Virus record (IMG/VR): IMGVR_UViG_3300025872_000328
Coordinates: 1-22,652 of that record
DNA length: 22,652 bases
Origin: a virus
Strand: one strand, 5' to 3'
Positions within the stretch are counted from its first letter, which is position 1. Each line of letters starts with the position of its first letter. Position numbers and translations under genes: made by a program. A model generated the notes under the pieces. It saw only the letters and a list, made by a program, of their open reading frames with translations. It searched no databases and had not been told where the DNA came from. Positions 13,739 to 22,502 of the stretch are shown one piece after another.

Positions 13739-14287
13739 CTAAAACTTTGACGGATTCTTATCGTGCCAATCAAGAGCTATTTTTAATGCTGATTTTGCAT
13801 CATCAGCAACAATTAGCTTGTTTGCCATTGTTTTTGCAAACCAGGTATCCGTTGAGTCAAATGGATTGCATCCTATATAAATTGGCTTGCACATTCCTCT
13901 GGCGCATCCAATTTCCGCAATTGTTCCATATGCGTGTTCGCTTTCATCTCCAAACCATGCAAACACAAAATCCGCTGCTTGAATTCCGGCAATTGATTTT
14001 TCTACGACAAAATATCTTAAAAAATCTTTCATGCCATGCCCTTCTAATGGCGCATCATCATCAAAGAAAAATCTATCACATGATGGGCCAACTGCATGAT
14101 CATAAGCGTGAGCGCAAGCGTGATCACATCCAACTGTAAATGGGCCTGTGTACGTCAGTTTCCTTCCATCAAAACTAAAGTCAACAAACTCTGCCTTGTG
14201 ATATTCATCTCCATTCCTTGCTATATCATCAACAATTCCAAATCGCGATCTATCTTTGTGAATTCTTCCGGCAATGTAAATTTTCAT
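13739..14287 (-). CDS. Nucleoside 2-deoxyribosyltransferase-like protein
   Basis: A 182-residue protein with a Rossmann-like N-terminus MKIYIAGRIH and, at residues 103-139, the pattern of nucleoside 2-deoxyribosyltransferase-like enzymes: GIQAADFVFAWFGD then YGTIAEIGCARG (E125 in the place of the usual catalytic Glu) and KPIYIG. Such enzymes move a deoxyribose between bases or hydrolyse modified nucleosides. Unusual is a His/Cys-rich stretch at 54-70 (CDHACAHAYDHAVGPSC), which may bind a metal. The gene looks more A+T-rich in wobble positions than its neighbours, suggesting separate acquisition. It is preceded by a structured leader and followed by a terminator, so it looks like a self-contained unit. 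Substrate unknown. Confidence 0.65.
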   Translation of the reverse strand: MKIYIAGRIHKDRSRFGIVDDIARNGDEYHKAEFVDFSFDGRKLTYTGPFTVGCDHACAHAYDHAVGPSCDRFFFDDDAPLEGHGMKDFLRYFVVEKSIAGIQAADFVFAWFGDESEHAYGTIAEIGCARGMCKPIYIGCNPFDSTDTWFAKTMANKLIVADDAKSALKIALDWHDKNPSKF

Positions 14288-14405
14288 AAATGCTCCGGGC
14301 CAAAAAAAGGCCCATCAAGTGAGGATGTGGTGGAACTCCCGATCCTAAACGACTGGGACACACCCTCAATTCATGAGCCTTTGTCGGGTTCCACGCCGAC
14401 CGTGG
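14288..14405 (-). ncRNA. Structured mRNA leader (candidate cis-regulatory RNA)
   Basis: The 118-base gap on the minus strand can fold well. GUGGAAC (14394-14388) pairs with GUUCCAC (14336-14330), continued by CGG-type pairing 14387-14384 with 14342-14339. Inside are hairpins with stems 14365-14368/14374-14377 and 14355-14357/14363-14365. CCACG (14405-14401) can instead pair with CGUGG (14395-14391), which excludes the first stem. A last hairpin GGGCC-U7-GGCCC (14313-14297) sits just before GGAG and the start codon. Exclusive pairings and a hairpin at the ribosome site are typical of regulatory leaders. No known riboswitch class was recognised. Confidence 0.45.
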
Positions 14406-14750
14406 TTATTTTAGCAGGTTGATTGCGTCCTTTGCACTCCTAACCACCCCCGCAATCCCACCCGCCTGATTAACGCGCAAGATGAACCGCTCCTGATCAT
14501 CAGTAACGCGACCCGTAGCGGTCTTGACTTCAGGAGCCAAGAACCTGCCATCAGGCGCGATTCCGATAATGTCCGATGATCCGACGCACAGGCCAACGTG
14601 CAAACGTCGCGGTTTTTTCAGGATTACATCGCCGTTTTTCAAATAAATTGGTTCGCCTACCCATGCAAGGCCAGTATTTTGCCGCCATACGGTGCATCCG
14701 GCCTCGGATAGAGCGAGGAGGCATTGGTTTTGAATGTTTTGTTCACTCAT
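14406..14750 (-). CDS. VRR-NUC domain nuclease
   Basis: A 114-residue protein starting MSEQNIQNQCLLALSEAG at ATG 14750, nine bases after GGAGG. A 14-codon upstream extension is open but lies inside the preceding small gene. Motifs of the VRR-NUC (PD-(D/E)XK-like) family are clear: GSSDIIGIAPDGRFLAPEVK supplies the Asp and ExK, followed by GRVTDDQERFI. Stand-alone phage VRR-NUC proteins are thought to cut branched or flapped DNA, similar to Holliday-junction resolvases, and often accompany replication helicases as here. The start overlaps the upstream stop (14743-14750). Confidence 0.88.
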   Translation of the reverse strand: MSEQNIQNQCLLALSEAGCTVWRQNTGLAWVGEPIYLKNGDVILKKPRRLHVGLCVGSSDIIGIAPDGRFLAPEVKTATGRVTDDQERFILRVNQAGGIAGVVRSAKDAINLLK

Positions 14751-14886
14751 TCTGTAATGCCTCCACCCTAGCCACCGCCTCTGGTATGCCATTCGAAACC
14801 TTAATGGCTACACGCTCCAGGAACGCCTCAACCTCATCAACCGTTGCGCCCGGCCTTGCGCGGGTAAAAAATTCTTCATCTGTCAT
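14743..14886 (-). CDS. Small acidic protein, 47 residues
   Basis: Starts MTDEEFFTRARPGATVDEVE; the rest is one probable helix (AFLERVAIKVSNGIPEAVAR). Start and stop both overlap neighbours: ATGA with the helicase stop and an eight-base overlap with the VRR-NUC start. AGGGGA stands five bases before the ATG. The tight overlaps on both sides make it a real gene. No family recognised; a helper of the helicase or nuclease is a guess from position. Confidence 0.7.
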   Translation of the reverse strand: MTDEEFFTRARPGATVDEVEAFLERVAIKVSNGIPEAVARVEALQNE

Positions 14887-16298
14887 AAGTATCCCCTAGC
14901 TTCCGTAAACATCGCCGGCGTCGGCCTAGCCCTGATTCTTGCCGCATGAATCATCACTGCCCACTCAGCCGGTTTATTGAGTCCTCTCCGCTTGCCAAGT
15001 TCCACCAAATCCTTCAGCGTTCTAGCTGATCCTTGCTCACGTTTCTTTTGCTTGCGTTGCGCTTCAATGTCAATCTGTTGAAGCTCACCATCTTCAACCT
15101 TGATTTCCCTTTGCTTTGGCCCTTCTTTGCCGCAGGAAGGGCACTCAGATAATCCTGCGCGATAGATGGCGTAGCACTCTGGGCACTGCCTGATCTTTAG
15201 GTCATTCTGGCTTGGCTTTTTGCGCTTTCCCTTGTTTGGATCTCCTTCAAGTCGCCATTCGCGTTCATCATCCGGCAGTCCATGACGTTGCCAGTTGCCG
15301 ACATGATCCAAAATCATTAGCGCCGGTTTATTGTCAGCCGTTCGGAATCCGCGCCCATTGCCCTGCATCCAAATAATCAACGATGCTGTGGGCCTGAGCC
15401 ATTGGACAACCTCAATCGCTGGAACGTCTACGCCCTCAATCATCAGTTCTACATTAGTCAGAACCTTGGTTTTACCTTCCTTAATGCGCCCCAGAATCGC
15501 CTGACGCTCTGATGATGGCGTATCACCGTCAATATGTTCTGCGCTGATTCCTGCCGAGTTATAAGCCTCACATACGTGCTTGGCATGGTTAATCGTGGCA
15601 CACATAACCACGCACCGTTTTCCGTATGCGAACTTCAGGTAATGCTCAACAGCATCACCTGTGACGGTCGGCTTATCGACAATCTGCTCAAGGATCTCTG
15701 GCGCATAATCACCCATGCGAGTTTTGACGCCATCCATGCTGACTTTAGATTCTGTCCCATACAGGCGGTAAGGACACAGGAAGCCTTGCTCAATCAATTC
15801 ACCGACCGATGGCCCTAGAACCATGTCCGTGAATATGTCGTTCAGCCCCTTGCCATCCGTCCGCTGTGGCGTTGCCGTAAGCCCGACAATCCGCGACTTT
15901 GGATACGCTTCAATGATCTTGCGGTAAGTATCAGCCGCCGCTCGATGCGCCTCGTCAATAATAATCAGCCCAGGTTCTGCCACGCGATCAAGACGCCTGA
16001 CCAACGTCTGCACCGATGCCACCTGCACAGGTATGCCAAGCGACATATTCCGACCTGCCGCAATGATTCCATGCTGTAGTTTCTGCTCCCATAGTGCGCG
16101 ACTGGTCTGCGACAGGAGCGTATCCCGATGGACACAAAACATAGAACTGATCCCGCGCTCTGCCGCCGTTGCCATCATATGAACAGTCAGAGCTGTCTTG
16201 CCCGCTCCTGTTGCCGCAACGACAAGGGTGGAGCGGTTATGGCGTAGGGATTCGCGGGTGGATGTGATGATTTCGGATTGGTATGGTCTTAGCTGCAT
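14883..16298 (-). CDS. SF2 DEAH-box helicase
   Basis: A 471-residue superfamily 2 helicase of the phage UvsW/Rad25-like group. Motif I TGAGKT (30-35), motif II DEAH (115-118), motif III TATPQR (141-146), and motif VI QGNGRGFR (312-319) are all intact. After the two RecA-like domains comes a basic linker (KGKRKKPSQNDLK) and a zinc ribbon with CPEC (372-375) and CPSC (386-389), then a C-terminal helical tail. The ATG at 16298 follows GGGGA; a GTG four codons upstream is possible but lies within the preceding gene. The role is probably origin or recombination-intermediate unwinding or fork remodelling. Confidence 0.92.
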   Translation of the reverse strand: MQLRPYQSEIITSTRESLRHNRSTLVVAATGAGKTALTVHMMATAAERGISSMFCVHRDTLLSQTSRALWEQKLQHGIIAAGRNMSLGIPVQVASVQTLVRRLDRVAEPGLIIIDEAHRAAADTYRKIIEAYPKSRIVGLTATPQRTDGKGLNDIFTDMVLGPSVGELIEQGFLCPYRLYGTESKVSMDGVKTRMGDYAPEILEQIVDKPTVTGDAVEHYLKFAYGKRCVVMCATINHAKHVCEAYNSAGISAEHIDGDTPSSERQAILGRIKEGKTKVLTNVELMIEGVDVPAIEVVQWLRPTASLIIWMQGNGRGFRTADNKPALMILDHVGNWQRHGLPDDEREWRLEGDPNKGKRKKPSQNDLKIRQCPECYAIYRAGLSECPSCGKEGPKQREIKVEDGELQQIDIEAQRKQKKREQGSARTLKDLVELGKRRGLNKPAEWAVMIHAARIRARPTPAMFTEARGYL

Positions 16299-16876
16299 AA
16301 AAATCCCCACTGGTCGGCCATAGCTTGAGCAATCCCAGAAAATGTGGCTGATCTAAGTTTCCATCTGTCTGGCGTTGGCGGTAGATAGTGCAACCTCATG
16401 CGCTCACGTTCTGGCAGTCTCATTGTCTGCTCTTTGACGTTATTGGTTGCAACCAGTTTCTGTAATCCTTTCAGCCACAGACAAGTTGCTTTTGTTTCCA
16501 TGTGCCCAAACATATACGGCTGTATTATTTGATCTGGTTTTCTCCAGATTGATGACATGACGCAAACCGGGTTTTCTATCGCTATTCGTGGAATGTCTGC
16601 CTTCGCCAGCATCATAAAAAATGAAGCACTTGCCTGCTGTTCACCTGCCATCCGTTTTTTTTCAAACCACGCTGCGCCAGAAACAGCAAGATTTGTGCAT
16701 GGTGGGTGGGCAATCATCAAATCCCACGGATAGTCGATCACATCTCTAACGTCACCTTGATAATGCGGCCCCGGCGATTCGGTCGGCAACAGATCGCAGC
16801 TCATGGCCTCATGCCCACCATTGATAAACGCATCGCGAACTGCTCCACTGTATTCACAGGCATCTAAAACGCGCAT
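16289..16876 (-). CDS. C5-cytosine-methyltransferase-like protein
   Basis: A 195-residue Rossmann-fold protein. MRVLDACEYSGAVRDAF stands in the place of the SAM-binding motif I, CDLLP is the motif II-like acid, AHPPCTNLAVSGA has the PC (residues 59-60) that carries the catalytic Cys in C5-methyltransferases, and ENP (101-103) is in the place of their motif VI ENV. It is far shorter than typical C5 enzymes and lacks a visible target-recognition domain. Similar short phage proteins are usually annotated as DNA methyltransferases. The ATG at 16876 overlaps the HTH gene stop as TGATG; a GTG one codon upstream is an alternative. Possible roles are DNA methylation for host restriction escape, or another pyrimidine modification. 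Confidence 0.7.
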   Translation of the reverse strand: MRVLDACEYSGAVRDAFINGGHEAMSCDLLPTESPGPHYQGDVRDVIDYPWDLMIAHPPCTNLAVSGAAWFEKKRMAGEQQASASFFMMLAKADIPRIAIENPVCVMSSIWRKPDQIIQPYMFGHMETKATCLWLKGLQKLVATNNVKEQTMRLPERERMRLHYLPPTPDRWKLRSATFSGIAQAMADQWGFLCS

Positions 16877-17046
16877 CACTTTTCCCCCAAATACTCCATC
16901 AACCGCCTCACCGTATCATGCGAAGGATTCGGAGTTTTTCCCGTCAACACGTTATGAATCGCCTGCCTGCTAAGTCCTGTAGCAACAGCCACCATCGACA
17001 GTCTACGATCCTTCAGCTTTTCCCTGATTTCTTCAAGCGTCATCAT
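16876..17046 (-). CDS. Small HTH (Cro/XRE-like) regulator, 56 residues
   Basis: Starts MMTLEEIREKLKDRRLSM and contains a helix-turn-helix: VAVATGLSRQAIHNVLTG (about residues 19-36), followed by NPSHDTVRRLMEYL. This is the shape of small Cro-type or anti-repressor-type DNA-binding proteins. AGGTGA is five bases before the first ATG at 17046, eight before the second at 17043. It is the first gene of the leftward transcript from the divergent promoters at 17071-17104, so it probably binds the adjacent dyad to control them and its own synthesis. No second repressor gene lies in the window. Confidence 0.85.
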   Translation of the reverse strand: MMTLEEIREKLKDRRLSMVAVATGLSRQAIHNVLTGKTPNPSHDTVRRLMEYLGEK

Positions 17047-17070
17047 TAAATTCACCTGCGTAAAAAAGAA

Positions 17071-17099
17071 TTGACAGTCTAATTCGTTGTGTTTACGAT
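17071..17099 (+). promoter_or_regulatory. Rightward sigma70 promoter (early recombination operon)
   Basis: A perfect -35 TTGACA (17071-17076), a 17-base spacer, and a -10 TACGAT (17094-17099). Expected start near 17106. It serves the exonuclease gene at 17144. Confidence 0.85.
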
Positions 17100-17104
17100 T
17101 TCAA
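17076..17104 (-). promoter_or_regulatory. Leftward sigma70 promoter (HTH regulator operon)
   Basis: On the minus strand -35 TTGAAA (17104-17099), a 17-base spacer, and -10 TAGACT (17081-17076). It shares the same DNA as the rightward promoter: each -35 touches the other's -10 by one base. Drives the HTH gene starting at 17046. Confidence 0.7.
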
Positions 17105-17122
17105 CCACTGGCAAGTGTTGCC
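17102..17122. promoter_or_regulatory. Dyad operator candidate
   Basis: CAACCACTGGCAAGTGTTG (17102-17120) has CAAC/GTTG ends and a TG.CA centre. Overlapping it is a perfect 13-base dyad GGCAA-GTG-TTGCC (17110-17122). It covers the rightward start site and the edge of the leftward -35, a good place for the HTH protein to bind. It would also form a small hairpin in the 5' end of the rightward mRNA. Confidence 0.5.
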
Positions 17123-17143
17123 GGTTTTCACACAGGAGTTTTT

Positions 17144-17929
17144 ATGTTGACCAAAGACCTATCAAACGATGCGTATCACGCGCACCCGGCAATCTCCAAA
17201 TCCGGCCTTGATCTGATTGCACGTTCTCCGGCGCATTACGCATACCGCGCACCCAAAGAACCATCACGCGCCATGGAAATTGGCACGGCTATTCATACGG
17301 CATTGCTTGAGCCTGAGCGTTACGCATCTGAATATCAGGTGGTTGATTGCGAAGATCGCCGCGCATCCATATACAAGGAAGCAGTAAAAATTCACGGGTC
17401 TGAGCGCGTATTGACCCGCGCCGAAGCCGACAAAATCACAGGCATGAGCGCATCAGTACAGGGTAATCCACACGCGCAGGCGTTGCTGAAGCATGATTTC
17501 GCGTCATTTGAAGTTTCGATTATCACCAAAGACCCAGAAACTGGCGTTGATGTGAAATGCCGCTTTGACTTGCTTGCAGGCAACAAAGCGCTGGATCTTA
17601 AAAAGACGCAGGATGCCCGCCCAGATTCGTTTGCAAAGTCGGTTGCCAACTATCGCTACATGGTGCAGGCCGCGTTTTATAGTGACGTATACCGTTGGGA
17701 AACTGGTGAAGAGCTTGAAGCCTTTGGTTTCTTAGTTGTTGAAGAAGAAATGCCACACGCCAGTGCAATCTACGTCCTTGACGATATGGCTCTGGACTAC
17801 GGTCGGATGCTGTACCGCAAGGAGCTAAATTTGTATGCCGACTGCCTAGATACTGGCGTATGGCCTTCAGTAGATCAAACGCCGCAGATCCTTAGCCTTC
17901 CTAATTGGGTTTATAAGGAGGTGGTGTAA
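17144..17929 (+). CDS. RecE-like / DUF3799 exonuclease (PD-(D/E)XK)
   Basis: A 261-residue nuclease. MEIGTAIHTALLEPE (44-58) is the conserved helix near the DNA-entry side. The active site is RFDLLAGN with D142 and DLKKT with D151 and K153 (D...DxK), followed by YRYMVQAAFY (160-169), which carries the conserved Gln. Enzymes of this group digest one strand 5' to 3' at double-strand ends, giving a 3' overhang for annealing. I chose ATG 17144, five bases after AGGAG; the frame is open upstream but that part is promoter and operator. The RecT partner lies two genes downstream. Confidence 0.9.
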   Translation: MLTKDLSNDAYHAHPAISKSGLDLIARSPAHYAYRAPKEPSRAMEIGTAIHTALLEPERYASEYQVVDCEDRRASIYKEAVKIHGSERVLTRAEADKITGMSASVQGNPHAQALLKHDFASFEVSIITKDPETGVDVKCRFDLLAGNKALDLKKTQDARPDSFAKSVANYRYMVQAAFYSDVYRWETGEELEAFGFLVVEEEMPHASAIYVLDDMALDYGRMLYRKELNLYADCLDTGVWPSVDQTPQILSLPNWVYKEVV

Positions 17930-18204
17930 TGCGTCCATTTAACCTTTACGAAGCCTTAGACGGTCATCCCGTCTGCATGGCAGGATTCCCGGAAACGCGC
18001 ATTGTTGGATTGCATTTATTTACGCAGTCAAACCATTCACATAGGTTGCTTGGCGTCGTTCATCATCTTGAGCGTTCGTACACAGGAGCAACCGATATTT
18101 ACACATGGACTCCAGATGGAATATTTGGTCACGATGATCCTGATAGCGATTTTTCTTGTATGCATCTGGTGATGTGGGAAGAAGGAGACGATGATAATGA
18201 GTAA
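17929..18204 (+). CDS. Unknown small protein between exonuclease and RecT
   Basis: A 91-residue acidic protein, start overlapping the exonuclease stop (TAATG). Features: MRPFNLYEALDGHPVCMAGF, a His-rich middle (NHSHRLLGVVHHLERSY), and an acidic tail (EEGDDDNE). The last bases hold the ribosome-binding site (AAGGAG) and the start of RecT. I do not recognise a family. Its central position in the recombination operon suggests an accessory or regulator of the exonuclease/annealase pair, but nothing demonstrates that. Confidence 0.75.
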   Translation: MRPFNLYEALDGHPVCMAGFPETRIVGLHLFTQSNHSHRLLGVVHHLERSYTGATDIYTWTPDGIFGHDDPDSDFSCMHLVMWEEGDDDNE

Positions 18205-18982
18205 CGCAATCGTTGAAGTCCGCTCACAACTGACCCGTATGGCCCCAGAACTTGCCAAAGTTTTGCCAGATCATGTGACCCCTGAGAAGTTTGAGCGCGT
18301 GACGTTGACTGCGTTACAGCGCAGTCCTGACCTGTTGGCTTGCGACAGAAAATCGCTGTTTGAATCCGTCATGCAATGTGCCCAGGATGGCTTGATTCCT
18401 GATGGGCGCGAAGCCGCTTTGACCAAGTTTGGTCAAAAGGTTGCGTATATGCCGATGGTTGCAGGAATCTTGAAGAAGATTCGTCAATCAGGCGATCTGG
18501 TTACGATCACGGCGCAAATGGTCTATCAGATGGATGACTTTCAATACTGGATCGACGATGAAGGCGAACACCTAAAGCATACGCCAGAAATGATCCGTGA
18601 TGCCGGTGAACCGTTAGCAGTCTACGCAATGGCCCGCACCAAGGATGGTGGCGTATATATCGAAGTCCTTCGCATGAGTGACGTTCAGAAGATCCGCGCA
18701 TCATCGCGTGGCGGTAATGGTGGCCCTTGGGCGCAATGGACTGATCAAATGGCAAAGAAATCAGCCATACGCCGCCTTGCCAAGCGATTGCCAATGTCAA
18801 CGGATCTTGAGCGCATCGTGCAGCGTGATGACCAGTTCTACCCATATCGTGAACCTGTCGTAGAACAGGCATCCAAAGCAGTCAGCGCATTAACTGTTGC
18901 AGAACCAGATATTATTGAAGATTCGCCCGTCAAGGACGAAGAAACCGCAGAAATAACCACTACAGACGCAGGAATTTTCTAA
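18197..18982 (+). CDS. recT: RecT-family single-strand annealing protein
   Basis: A 261-residue recombinase. The order MAPELAKVLPDHVTPEKFER, then LTALQRSPDLLACDRKSLF, CAQDGLIPDGREAALTKFG, and YMPMVAGILKKIRQSG is characteristic of RecT. The C-terminal third is acidic and variable. It anneals single-stranded DNA exposed by the exonuclease. I chose ATG 18197 rather than 18191: AAGGAG is nine bases before 18197 and only three before 18191. It overlaps the upstream stop. Gene symbol given for the family. Confidence 0.95.
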   Translation: MSNAIVEVRSQLTRMAPELAKVLPDHVTPEKFERVTLTALQRSPDLLACDRKSLFESVMQCAQDGLIPDGREAALTKFGQKVAYMPMVAGILKKIRQSGDLVTITAQMVYQMDDFQYWIDDEGEHLKHTPEMIRDAGEPLAVYAMARTKDGGVYIEVLRMSDVQKIRASSRGGNGGPWAQWTDQMAKKSAIRRLAKRLPMSTDLERIVQRDDQFYPYREPVVEQASKAVSALTVAEPDIIEDSPVKDEETAEITTTDAGIF

Positions 18983-18983
18983 A

Positions 18984-19283
18984 ATGGCAAAGAAACTATA
19001 CGATTTGGCAGTCAAGACCGGCGAATACACCGCAAACGGTCAGACCAAAGGCCGCTATGAAAACGTGGGCGCAGTCATGCAGTCCGATGACGGTGGCAAG
19101 TTCATTATGATGAAGCGCGTATTTAACCCCGCTGGCGTTCCCGATCTATCTGGGCGCAATAGCGATTCGATCTTGCTATCTATGTTCCCGCCGAAGGATG
19201 CAGATCAGCAGCAAGCACCGCAAAGACAGGCCGCGCCGCAACAGGCGCAGAATAGCGGATACTCAGACGATATCCCATTCTGA
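18984..19283 (+). CDS. SSB-like single-stranded DNA-binding protein
   Basis: A 99-residue protein starting one base after the RecT stop. The N-terminal part (MAKKLYDLAVKTGEYTANG, then GRYENVGAVMQ, KFIMMKRVFNPAGVP) looks like the short OB-fold phage DNA-binding proteins that sit beside RecT. A Gln/Pro/Ala-rich linker (residues 73-92) and the acidic terminal DDIPF follow, the hallmark SSB tip that binds partner proteins. It should coat single strands made by the exonuclease. It closes the recombination operon. Confidence 0.85.
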   Translation: MAKKLYDLAVKTGEYTANGQTKGRYENVGAVMQSDDGGKFIMMKRVFNPAGVPDLSGRNSDSILLSMFPPKDADQQQAPQRQAAPQQAQNSGYSDDIPF

Positions 19284-19306
19284 TTAACGATTATCACTCC
19301 CCTTTG

Positions 19307-19332
19307 CCCCGGCTTCGGTCGGGGATTTTTTT
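19307..19332 (+). terminator. Intrinsic terminator with UUCG tetraloop
   Basis: CCCCGGC-UUCG-GUCGGGG (7 bp, one G-U) followed by A and seven U. Very stable. It ends the recombination operon and lies 26 bases before the next gene start. Confidence 0.95.
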
Positions 19333-19358
19333 CAATGCCGGACAACAGGAGAGAAGGC

Positions 19359-20492
19359 ATGGAATATGCAATTTTAATGGCAGAGATTGATTCTCTTCCG
19401 CTAGATCAAAAAATAGACGCTATCAATGAATTGCGACAGGCAATTCATGAAATCAGCCCATTCAAGTCTGAGCCAGTTGATTTTGTGCGCTGGGTAAAAA
19501 ACCCATTAGTGCATTCAAACGATTACAACCCAAACAGTGTAGCGCCACCAGAGATGGAGCTTTTGCGCGTGTCTATTGACGCCGATGGATATACACAGCC
19601 AATCGTGTCAATGGCTGATCCTGATGGCCGCTATGAAGTCATTGATGGGTTTCACCGCCATAGGGTTGGCAAGGAATGCGCAGACATACAGGGCAGGGTT
19701 CATGGCTATCTTCCATTGGTGCAGATCAGAGAATCCCAGGTTGATAAAACCAATCGCATGGCATCAACGATTCGCCACAATCGCGCTAGGGGCAAGCATC
19801 AGGTTGAAGCCATGTCAGATATTGTTGTGGAGCTAAAACGCCGAAACTGGACTGATGAAAAGATCTCCAAAAACCTCGGCATGGATCAAGATGAGATTTT
19901 GCGCCTTTGTCAGATCACTGGATTGTCTGAATTGTTTTCCGATCAGGAATTTTCTCGCTCTTGGGATGTTGAAGGTGAGATAACCGAATCAGATTTTGAA
20001 GAATTGACCGATGACGTTGAATCTTACGGCGAAGAGGCTGATGGATTCAGGACGGTGAACACCAGTGACGAAAACCGCATTTTTCATACTTACGACAAGT
20101 GGGAATGCTATCGGGCTGGATTTTACGCGACCACAATGGATGGCATGACCAAGGCGCAATGCGAAGAATATTATCGCGTCTTTTTGTCTGACATTCCACG
20201 ATTCTCTAGGGCGCTCCATGGAGTCATTACGGAATGGAAACATTCTTGCGAACACTATCTAACCAATTCCGCAATGAATCGCATAGCGTGGCTTGGACAG
20301 GCGTCAGCGTGTTACGACATGGGCGTTCCATCAACATTTCGTAGTGGCTTTTTTTTGCTGACAGAAGAACAGCAAGAAGCTGCCAACCAATGCGCCCTTG
20401 AATATCTGAACACATGGCTTGTTGCTAACGGACGAGATGCCGTGACAATGGAAGAAGCCTACTCTGGTAGCAGACAATCGGACATTTACTAA
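19359..20492 (+). CDS. ParB/IbrB-like protein with extra C-terminal domain
   Basis: A 377-residue protein. Residues about 40-150 are a ParB/sulfiredoxin-type N-domain: YEVIDGFHRHRVGKE (92-106) matches the ParB GxxR nucleotide-site region and TIRHNRARGKH (137-147) is in the place of the second ParB box. A likely HTH follows (WTDEKISKNLGMDQDEILRL, 164-183). An acidic linker (190-227) leads to a separate C-terminal domain (about 228-377) with DKWECYRAGFYA, SCEHYLTN (286-293), and NRIAWLGQASACYDMG. I have seen this domain's sequence style in stand-alone phage proteins of unknown function, not in classical ParB. No ParA gene is near, so plasmid-type partition is unlikely. ATG 19359 is seven bases after AGGAG. 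Its stop overlaps the next gene's start by one base. Confidence 0.8.
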   Translation: MEYAILMAEIDSLPLDQKIDAINELRQAIHEISPFKSEPVDFVRWVKNPLVHSNDYNPNSVAPPEMELLRVSIDADGYTQPIVSMADPDGRYEVIDGFHRHRVGKECADIQGRVHGYLPLVQIRESQVDKTNRMASTIRHNRARGKHQVEAMSDIVVELKRRNWTDEKISKNLGMDQDEILRLCQITGLSELFSDQEFSRSWDVEGEITESDFEELTDDVESYGEEADGFRTVNTSDENRIFHTYDKWECYRAGFYATTMDGMTKAQCEEYYRVFLSDIPRFSRALHGVITEWKHSCEHYLTNSAMNRIAWLGQASACYDMGVPSTFRSGFFLLTEEQQEAANQCALEYLNTWLVANGRDAVTMEEAYSGSRQSDIY

Positions 20493-21697
20493 TGGCTATA
20501 AAACGATACCGCAAAGAATCGGTCCTTGATGCGGCAAGGGCAAGAATACGTGAAACATTTGATTCTGTTGAGCGTGTTTATACGGCATTTTCCGGCGGAA
20601 AGGATTCTAGCGTAATGATGCACCTTGTCATGGAAGAAGCTATTCGACGAAATCAGAAGATTGGCGTCATGTTTATCGACATGGAAGCCCAGTATGCAGA
20701 AACCATCGAACACGCTAAAGAAATGTTCGATATGTATGAGGATTACATTGATCCTCACTGGATCTGCATTCCTATGCTATTGCGTAACGCAGTCACAAAC
20801 TTTGAGCCGCGATGGACCGCATGGGATGAGGAAAAGAAAGACATTTGGATCAGGCCAAAGCCAGAATGGGCAAAGACCGAGCATGATTATCCATTTGCTG
20901 TGCCAGGAATGGAATTTGAAGAATTTATCGTTCTTTTTGGTGAATGGTACGGACAAAGCAAGCGCACTGCTGGGTTTATTGGCATCAGGGCACAAGAGTC
21001 GCTTCACCGTTATTGCGCTGTGGCAACATGGGAAAAAAAAGATTTAATGCTTCATAACCGCCGCTGGACCACAAAAATTGTGGCCGATACTTACAACGTC
21101 TATCCGATCTACGATTGGCTGACAGAGGATATCTGGCGGTTTCACGCCAAATACAAAGACAAACCGCATAACCGGATTTACGACAAGATGCACATGGCTG
21201 GGGTGAAATTAAGTCAACAACGCCTTTGTCAGCCGTTCGGAGACGATCAGCGCCGTGGTTTGTGGCTGTATCACATTCTGGAACCCCAGACATGGTTCAA
21301 GCTGATTGCTCGCGTTAATGGTGCGAACTCTGGCGCTCTCTATATTGAAGAGCGTGGAAACATTAACGGATACAACAAAATTAGCAAACCTCCGCATCAT
21401 AGTTGGCATTCATTCTGCAATTTGTTACTTCAGACGATGCCGAAGAAAACTCGAGATCACTACATCATTCGATTCAAAAAGTTCATTTATGGCTGGCATC
21501 AACGTGGTTATCCGCAGATTCCAGAAGAAGCGCCACCAGAACTTGAGGCCAAATGCTGGGCGCCGTCGTGGAGAAGAATGTGCAAGGTTTTATTGCGGAA
21601 TGACTATTGGTGCAAGGGCTTGGGTCAGGCTCAACCAAAAAGCGACGCCTATGCAAAATACAAGCAAATGAAAAAAGATGGACGATTGCCAAACTAA
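20492..21697 (+). CDS. PP-loop ATPase, PAPS reductase / DUF3440 family (IbrA-like)
   Basis: A 401-residue protein of the adenine nucleotide alpha-hydrolase fold. The PP-loop FSGGKDSS is at 33-40, GIRAQES at 164-170, and NVYPIYDWLTEDIW at 202-215. Size and order match the DUF3440 proteins, of which E. coli IbrA is the known example. It lacks the C-terminal ECG(L/I)H motif of true CysH reductases, so sulfate assimilation is unlikely. It is more like an ATP pyrophosphatase that adenylates or activates a substrate, as DndC and tRNA thiolation enzymes do. Several Cys are scattered in the C-terminal half (C246, and KCWAPS, MCKVL, YWCKG near the end). Start overlaps the ParB-like gene (TAATG), implying a paired complex. 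Confidence 0.88.
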   Translation: MAIKRYRKESVLDAARARIRETFDSVERVYTAFSGGKDSSVMMHLVMEEAIRRNQKIGVMFIDMEAQYAETIEHAKEMFDMYEDYIDPHWICIPMLLRNAVTNFEPRWTAWDEEKKDIWIRPKPEWAKTEHDYPFAVPGMEFEEFIVLFGEWYGQSKRTAGFIGIRAQESLHRYCAVATWEKKDLMLHNRRWTTKIVADTYNVYPIYDWLTEDIWRFHAKYKDKPHNRIYDKMHMAGVKLSQQRLCQPFGDDQRRGLWLYHILEPQTWFKLIARVNGANSGALYIEERGNINGYNKISKPPHHSWHSFCNLLLQTMPKKTRDHYIIRFKKFIYGWHQRGYPQIPEEAPPELEAKCWAPSWRRMCKVLLRNDYWCKGLGQAQPKSDAYAKYKQMKKDGRLPN

Positions 21698-22031
21698 ACA
21701 CTGCCCACACTGCCACCAAATCAAACCCATAACCGACTTCCACCTAAATCACGCCAGACCAAATGGTGCCAGGCAATCCTGGTGCAAGGACTGTAAAAAT
21801 CATCTGAAACGATCAACCACGCTACTGCGTGGCCCCGCTCCAGAGCGAACCAGGGTGATGCCGCAATGGGGTGAGAAACGCTGGAACGCCAAATTGACTG
21901 CTCAGGACGTGATCCTAATACGCGGACTGTTGCCCTGGCTGTCCTGCGCTGAGATCGCCAAAAAATTTGACGTATCCCGTACCTGCATCAGCAGCATCAA
22001 ACACGGATATTCTTGGTACAAACTAAAATAG
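21678..22031 (+). CDS. Zinc-ribbon + HTH DNA-binding protein
   Basis: A 117-residue protein whose start lies in the last 20 bases of the PP-loop gene. An N-terminal zinc site is formed by C9, C12, C36 and C39 (CPHC and CKDC), with KPITDFHLN between, as in zinc ribbons attached to phage HNH endonucleases. After a Pro-rich linker, residues about 73-113 form an HTH-like module (AEIAKKFDVSRTCISSIKHG) seen at the ends of homing endonucleases. No HNH catalytic residues are present between them. It may be a regulator or the DNA-binding remnant of an endonuclease. Possible partner of the ParB/PP-loop pair by position. Confidence 0.75.
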   Translation: MDDCQTKHCPHCHQIKPITDFHLNHARPNGARQSWCKDCKNHLKRSTTLLRGPAPERTRVMPQWGEKRWNAKLTAQDVILIRGLLPWLSCAEIAKKFDVSRTCISSIKHGYSWYKLK

Positions 22032-22034
22032 TTG

Positions 22035-22065
22035 TTGACATGGCGTAACCGATGGTTGATATAAT
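22035..22065 (+). promoter_or_regulatory. Rightward promoter with flanking dyad and 5' hairpin
   Basis: -35 TTGACA (22035-22040) and -10 TATAAT (22060-22065), both perfect, spacer 19 bases, slightly long. TGACAT (22036-22041) and ATGTCA (22064-22069) form an inverted repeat on the two boxes. The predicted mRNA starts with an 8-bp hairpin, GUUGAGGG/CCUUCAAC (22074-22094). Confidence 0.75.
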
Positions 22066-22110
22066 GTCATCACGTTGAGGGGTTGGCCTTCAACATCACC
22101 GGAGAGATAA

Positions 22111-22308
22111 ATGGACGTTGTATATGTTAAGTCAATCGAAAATTTCAGAGATTTAATGATTTCATCTGAGCAAGAGAAAGTAGACATTTTTTTGCCGGGA
22201 CACTCAGCAAAAATGCTGCTAATTGCAATGCGTTGGTACGACTGGTCGCATGCTGATCTGCAAGTCCATGCTGAAAACATGATTAGCATTGGTTGCGAAC
22301 CTTTTTGA
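22111..22308 (+). CDS. Unknown small protein, 65 residues
   Basis: First gene after the new promoter; GGAG is eight bases before the ATG. Sequence starts MDVVYVKSIENFRDLM and has FLPGHSAKMLLIAMRWYDW in the middle. Acidic N-terminal half, amphipathic helix after. No family recognised, no signal or membrane segment. The strong promoter suggests high or early expression, as for phage host-takeover proteins; that is inference only. Confidence 0.65.
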   Translation: MDVVYVKSIENFRDLMISSEQEKVDIFLPGHSAKMLLIAMRWYDWSHADLQVHAENMISIGCEPF

Positions 22309-22319
22309 TTGTTGCCGCT

Positions 22320-22502
22320 ATGGATGATTTTGACACCCCAAACACAAAGCCCGGATTCTGCCCTGAGTGTGACCAACGGGCAGACATCTGGAACGCTACC
22401 AAAAACCATTGGGAATGCTGCTACTGCAACTGGTCTGGATCAAAACCCAATCAAGAAAAACGCTTCAAACAGGAGAACGAGTCATGGTTTATTTGTTCGT
22501 AA
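22320..22502 (+). CDS. Small zinc-ribbon protein, 60 residues
   Basis: CPEC (C14, C17) and CCYC (C33, C36) form a clear four-Cys zinc ribbon in the N-terminal two thirds, followed by a charged tail. Starting at ATG 22320; no good ribosome site is seen, so translation may be coupled to the gene ending 12 bases upstream (TTG 22293 is an alternative start). Function unknown; such phage mini-ribbons may bind nucleic acid or host proteins. Confidence 0.6.
   Translation: MDDFDTPNTKPGFCPECDQRADIWNATKNHWECCYCNWSGSKPNQEKRFKQENESWFICS

Follow-up and report, generated by a model that had tools for sequence, protein, structure and literature searches.

From sequence and gene context, the two overlapping genes analyzed here in a phage genome are assigned to the IbrB/IbrA family (PHROG 2159 and PHROG 2302; DUF3440), and the IbrB-like protein carries at its C-terminus a separate domain, here called X, which among the loci found occurs only beside IbrA and IbrB. 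The predicted IbrAB system of this virus thus has at least three parts. We found no description of X as a module-specific third domain in the libraries and open-access papers searched. Overall, an ordinary IbrAB family assignment is joined by a real extension, X, and the mechanism claim shifts away from sulphur chemistry.

Organization of the window and of the ibr genes

The window, meaning the whole stretch of DNA analyzed, comprises all 22,652 bases of one IMG/VR virus record and belongs to a tailed phage; a megablast search of phages with this full-length sequence gave no match. The tail, major head, scaffold, head morphogenesis, portal, terminase, primase/helicase and helicase genes lie on the minus strand, as does a small DNA methyltransferase gene (16292-16879; PHROG 757), whose product is not of the PHROG 11826 family seen in distant IbrA operons. 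On the plus strand, genes for an exonuclease VIII-like protein, RecT and a small SSB-like protein with a DDIPF tail stand directly 5' of ibrB.

The first gene of the pair, ibrB-X (19359-20492, plus strand), encodes 377 amino acids. Its ParB/sulfiredoxin-fold domain (residues ~28 to 205; 19440-19973) harbors the motifs NDYNPN, DGFHR and TIRHNRARGxH, all of which are kept in the family, and is followed by domain X (residues ~238 to 377; 20070-20489), which is homologous to separate open reading frames (ORFs) beside ibrAB in other phages. The second gene, ibrA (20492-21697, plus strand), encodes a PP-loop ATP pyrophosphatase of 401 amino acids composed of PAPS_reduct and DUF3440 regions; the ibrB-X stop and the ibrA start overlap by one base (TAATG). 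An in-frame ATG is also present at 19335, and an AGGAG lies a few bases 5' of the ATG at 19359, with no AGGAG-like site 5' of the one at 19335.

Upstream of ibrB, a GC-rich, intrinsic-terminator-like hairpin followed by a T-run (19307-19324, plus strand; 7 pairs, 6 of them G-C; fold energy -13.9 kcal/mol) may set the ibr genes apart from the recT/SSB operon. We give it no weight, because such sites are equally frequent in shuffled sequence (7 found in the window versus 6.3 expected). Downstream, an ORF at 21678-22031 has 20 bases in common with the 3' end of ibrA; its N-terminus has endonuclease VII/HNH-like PHROG matches and its C-terminus a weak helix-turn-helix match.

IbrB and IbrA form a constant pair

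The first-pass annotation had observed that the pair recalls E. coli IbrB/IbrA, and this resemblance turned out to be true homology. The window proteins are 41% (IbrA) and 52% (IbrB) identical to the annotated IbrA and IbrB of Escherichia phage PhiR5_2, homologues of both genes are annotated as IbrA and IbrB in several phages, and YbdN and YbdM of E. coli K-12 align with window IbrA and IbrB, respectively, with the motifs kept.

The constant pairing of the two families, which the same annotation had proposed to test, was also recovered. When 50,697 phage records were searched by tblastn, IbrA was found in 216 and IbrB in 218, and the tallies by host were near-identical for the two genes (90 and 90 for Flavobacterium, 55 and 55 for Mycobacterium, 21 and 21 for Streptococcus, 12 and 12 for Arthrobacter), the two lists being compared through these tallies and not intersected record by record. 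In sampled cellular genomes of three phyla, DUF3440 was present in 18/388, 4/297 and 1/392, and IbrB adjoined IbrA for all 25 distinct IbrA genes, with the IbrB partner of one of them found in locus L241 from that genome. Since IbrA and IbrB are constantly paired in phages and in cellular genomes, their homologues do not mostly occur apart.

IbrAB-type pairs have a wide but patchy distribution, comprising phages of many bacterial phyla and E. coli K-12, and one has been found in a Heimdallarchaeal virus-like element (PMC8813620). IbrAB is also carried by phage FCL-2, for which neither an integrase nor a repressor was detected (PMC4541368), and given this phage the module is not limited to prophages.

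IbrB is a ParB-type protein distinct from partition proteins

The ParB-type N-domain previously noted in the first gene was supported by two profiles, PHROG 2159 ("ParB-like," 1.5e-65) and PF02195 (ParB_N), the latter matching the full window protein at E=1.7e-4, which is under the Pfam gathering score; PF02195 was matched by 11/11 IbrB family members tested, at best with 4e-10. The helix-turn-helix that had been described along with it was not confirmed by the same search. No helix-turn-helix profile matched any of the 11 IbrB proteins at a Pfam E of up to 1, the output consisting of ParB_N and weak matches to unrelated families; past the ParB core lies a segment that looks helical and is unassigned.

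DGFHR is found in 178 of 179 IbrB relatives and DGYHR in the remaining one, and RHNRARG is kept in 177. The DGFHR motif stands where sulfiredoxin has GGCHR, and the catalytic cysteine of that sulfiredoxin motif is absent from all 179 relatives. The canonical ParB partition model TIGR00180 gave the window protein 19.2 bits against a cut-off of 58.45, and no recurrent ParA-like neighbour was recognised among 197 viral loci. Both "partition protein" and "PAPS reductase" are misleading annotations for IbrAB pairs. Single-sequence searches of IbrA or IbrB against the PDB yielded nothing useful. As ParB-fold proteins vary in binding CTP, ATP or GTP (PMC12704722), the nucleotide bound by IbrB cannot be predicted from its sequence.

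Domain X is a third part of the module

The first gene had been called a ParB-domain fusion, and a fusion it is; the partner domain, at residues ~230 to 377, had been left undescribed. Most known phage IbrB proteins end near residues 205 to 215 in window numbering, and the window protein extends to 377. Neither Pfam nor PHROG yielded a match to X. Its conserved residues are, in its own numbering, H6, W11, E12, W56, S59, E61, N70 and G76, and its AlphaFold2 model is all-helical (pLDDT 94). The fold search with this model was meaningless in the PDB (lowest E 1.4, no probability above 0.21) and gave one significant match only in BFVD, a protein of 116 amino acids, which is the length of the X homologue of Pseudoalteromonas phage XCL1123.

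As ORFs of their own beside ibrAB, homologues of X are encoded by Microcystis phage Mwe-JY13 (7.6e-46), Pseudomonas phage Amjad_SA, phage XCL1123 and Mycobacterium phage Gaia (gp106). All five isolate phages with X (these four and Nebkiss) encode both IbrA and IbrB, for which the chance probability is 1.3e-12 (hypergeometric). A scan of 84,980 genomes gave six X loci, the most divergent at 27% identity; IbrA and IbrB were nearby in all six. Detectable X is absent from most isolate phages with IbrAB.

Among 197 deduplicated viral IbrA loci, a sample biased toward relatives of the window and including the window virus itself, X was present in 185. It was fused to IbrB in 127 of these and separate in the rest, mostly in the order B-X-A or X-A-B. 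One contig of the sample, L014, is 99.96% identical to window positions 14057-22472 and is another assembly of the window virus, which means that its 100% match to X does not count separately. In the fused loci, the stop of X and the start of IbrA overlap by one base in 49/127 and are separated by 1 to 2 bases in 51/127. A linker with a median of 30 residues separates the B match from the X match. On a quick IbrA tree, the fusion state requires at least four changes. Though X is usually fused to IbrB, its pairwise divergence follows that of IbrA (r=0.80) more closely than that of IbrB (r=0.34), and this tracking suggests that X contacts IbrA.

Missing invariant cysteines argue against a common sulphur mechanism for IbrA

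The SGGKDSS PP-loop and the GIRAQES site reported earlier in the second gene lie in a protein that matches PAPS_reduct (PF01507, 1.8e-14), DUF3440 (PF11922, 5.4e-34) and PHROG 2302 (1.5e-83). Across 179 IbrA relatives, the PP-loop reads SGGKDS in 142 and SAGKDS in 37, and a GIRxxES-type site is present in every one. Within a divergent IbrA set, reaching down to ~24% identity, 22 residues are invariant and centre on the PP-loop motif. They include SGGKDS, which is invariant in this set, the SAGKDS form being found in part of the larger set of 179, as well as D63, E65, G164, R166, E169, R173, P205, D208, W209, D213 and R244. No cysteine is among the 22. The best-kept cysteines in an alignment of 62 sequences, C374 (90%) and C246 (84%), are both replaced in divergent members.

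These observations bear on the sulphur enzymes DndC and TtcA, to which the pair had been loosely linked. According to such a reading, IbrA would thiolate the DNA backbone, a base or tRNA, and IbrB would be a DndB-like partner. IbrA is of the same superfamily and has weak DndC matches, its fold search also returned NcsA/TtuA/LarE, sulphur transfer has been proposed for a Mycobacterium abscessus prophage protein (PMC8092301), and the cys regulon is raised when ybdNM is derepressed, which is a correlation only (PMC9068703). Against it, no cysteine is invariant either in the 62 IbrA proteins or in the extended set, and the cysteine ligands of a TtcA or Fe-S tRNA thiolase cluster are accordingly missing as a family feature. 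The DndC model TIGR03183 gave 22.8 bits (cut-off 290.4) and the CysH model PRK02090 gave 25.6 bits (cut-off 154), the catalytic C-terminal cysteine of CysH not being conserved, and no recurrent cysteine desulfurase or DndD/E-like neighbour was recognised in the 197 viral loci. The sulphur link is thus weakened, and we consider thiolation by IbrA improbable.

The AlphaFold2 model of IbrA (pLDDT 86) found its best fold matches in CysH, the PAPS domain of human FAD synthase (TM 0.67 by target) and CysD (0.64), the latter two being as close to it as CysH. AMP transfer by FAD synthase or CysD involves no catalytic cysteine. Because these two enzymes adenylylate without a cysteine and no IbrA cysteine is invariant, a sulphur mechanism common to the whole family is unlikely, and an adenylation-type mechanism, as suggested by the modelled fold, would be the simpler reading.

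In two loci, a small ORF after X (L238:6335-6589 and L240:6281-6595) repeats the C-terminal ~75 residues of IbrA, a full-length IbrA being encoded in the same operon. The C-terminal piece of IbrA may be an independent domain.

A cupin and other enzymes accompany IbrAB in relatives

Some IbrAB modules appear to include a cupin as an optional fourth part. In phage XCL1123, an ectoine-synthase-like cupin (PF06339, 1.7e-35) is encoded between IbrA and IbrB, the IbrB of Gaia has an EctC-like cupin as its N-terminal part, and a planctomycete metagenome-assembled genome has the gene order A-cupin-B-X. The residues of the H-x-E, Y-x-L and E-x-H segments, among them those that bind metal and substrate in ectoine synthase, are mostly kept in these cupins.

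A distant branch comprises Mycobacterium phage Gadjet, M. abscessus prophage prophi79-1, Arthrobacter phage Laroye, Bacillus phage 031MP002 and phage PJN03. All five encode IbrA and IbrB together with a second ParB protein, three of the five carry a methyltransferase of PHROG 11826, and most of the operons adjoin terminase. In Microbacterium phage Rasputia, three glycosyltransferase genes, an acetyltransferase gene and a methyltransferase gene precede ibrA at the right genome end (L279:12040-17097), and the left end (L278:1-1890) opens with three ParB genes; this run and the ParB genes form a candidate hypermodification cluster. In the window clade, the pair sits with replication and recombination genes and has no constant modification neighbour, no neighbouring gene being present in more than 37/197 loci.

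A second cassette near the IbrAB pair was observed in Fusobacterium phage phiFN37 (L009:10763-13072). It encodes a ParB-like protein, a queuine tRNA-ribosyltransferase-like protein and a queuosine-precursor transporter, and resembles DpdB/DpdA-type DNA modification.

Nucleic-acid modification is the preferred explanation

The pair had been suggested to mark DNA, modify tRNA or regulate host genes. Of these, nucleic-acid modification is best supported, through the methyltransferases, glycosyltransferases and cupin found in relatives, and regulation remains a rival. We tentatively favour the view that IbrAB-X is an ATP-dependent, adenylation-type nucleic-acid-modifying complex, because of the ATP pocket, the ParB partner, the methyltransferase-bearing branches and the presence of the pair in FCL-2. 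IbrA would bind ATP in the PP-loop pocket and transfer AMP to, or activate via AMP, a group on nucleic acid, most likely DNA, or on a small molecule destined for it. IbrB would recognise the nucleic acid and, by binding a nucleotide, gate the reaction, and the helical partner X, here part of the IbrB protein, would position IbrA. Optional enzymes such as the ectoine-synthase-like cupin and the methyltransferases could then elaborate the product. The catalysis, its nucleic-acid target and these roles of IbrB and X are what we infer.

ParB-fold proteins do accompany phage DNA-modification enzymes, as in the case of CmoX (PMC12783734) and of DpdA with DpdB (PMC12839542). Against modification, the methyltransferase and glycosyltransferase contexts are confined to distant branches. 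The open-access papers searched report no modified nucleoside for any IbrAB phage and contain nothing relevant on restriction resistance or modified bases in such phages. In addition, PP-loop enzymes also act on free metabolites. Serratia phage eta, which has a ParB gene, was considered as a case of modified DNA and set aside as uninformative, its DNA being unmodified and its paper making no mention of IbrA. A more specific version, a new hypermodification pathway in which IbrB would hold the DNA while IbrA activates by adenylation a base or amino-acid-like group on it, X would position both proteins and, in some phages, the cupin would form a cyclic amidine-type adduct by ring closure, is in our judgment a long shot.

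The main rival, which we regard as rather unlikely, is that the pair is a transcriptional co-activator, in which IbrB would bind DNA, IbrA would sense or make a nucleotide signal, phage or prophage genes would be turned on and X would be a regulatory interaction domain. E. coli ibrAB was reportedly named (Sandt 2002, cited in PMC10434257) for activating prophage eib genes, and this transcriptional activation is, to our knowledge, the only published function of IbrAB. ParB folds can be DNA clamps, and several Firmicutes and coliphage copies of IbrAB lie near antirepressor or repressor genes. Deletion of citR in E. coli derepresses ybdN and ybdM alongside broad expression changes, with the cys regulon and flagellar genes up and lrhA down (PMC9068703), but these changes may act through lrhA. 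Co-activation is further disfavoured by the missing helix-turn-helix match in IbrB, by the location of the window-clade pairs with replication and recombination genes, by FCL-2, and by the fully conserved ATP-pyrophosphatase pocket, which would be unusual for a mere regulator. For the cellular role of IbrAB-type pairs, the citR data on the K-12 region with ybdM, ybdN and citR (L242:4748-7619) are a lead in their own right.

The early-region location beside recombination genes would also suit a counter-defence or metabolite effector, which early in infection would consume or modify a nucleotide, a signal or a factor of the host and leave nucleic acid unchanged. Nucleotides can be substrates both of ParB-fold NTPases and of PP-loop enzymes, and the wide but patchy spread of the pair over phages and prophages and the extra cupin in some modules fit such a role. 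The methyltransferase- and ParB-rich operons of the distant branches point instead to nucleic acid, and PADLOC matched no model beyond weak DndC/BrxP; we regard an effector as unlikely. A toxin-antitoxin function, which a TASmania guilt-by-association label suggests for Listeria lmo1309-lmo1310 (PMC7020466), has nothing in its favour beyond this database label. No toxin or antitoxin family was matched, and an apparently lytic phage, modules of three or four parts and a conserved enzymatic pocket fit it poorly, making it very improbable.

IbrAB pairs are widespread. With a third domain, an optional cupin, methyltransferase-linked branches and an enzyme in which the ATP pocket is conserved and the cysteines are not, a vague annotation becomes a defined complex that is open to concrete tests.

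Comparison with known systems

With DndC/DndB, the window module shares a PP-loop enzyme and a ParB-fold partner, but it lacks conserved Fe-S or sulphur cysteines and no DndA/D/E partners were seen. The closest folds to IbrA are those of CysH, of the FMN adenylyltransferase FAD synthase and of the ATP sulfurylase CysD; IbrA differs from the latter two in its large DUF3440 C-terminal region. IbrB resembles SerK, sulfiredoxin and ParB (the ParB-CTPase fold) in its fold and phosphate-motif region; unlike them, it has no GERR box, no sulfiredoxin cysteine and no ParA-type neighbour seen, and it has a RHNRARGxH motif of its own. The DpdA/DpdB and CmoX cassettes likewise combine a modifying enzyme with a ParB-fold protein (PMC12839542, PMC12783734), although a TGT or a carboxymethyltransferase takes the place of the PP-loop ATP pyrophosphatase and is not homologous to IbrA. 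Closest of all are the E. coli IbrAB island and K-12 YbdN/YbdM, which are homologous proteins with the same pairing and motifs and with overlapping genes, the overlap being 28 bp for ybdN/ybdM and one base in the window. The enterobacterial copies run A then B without X, whereas the window has B then A, with X carried on IbrB.
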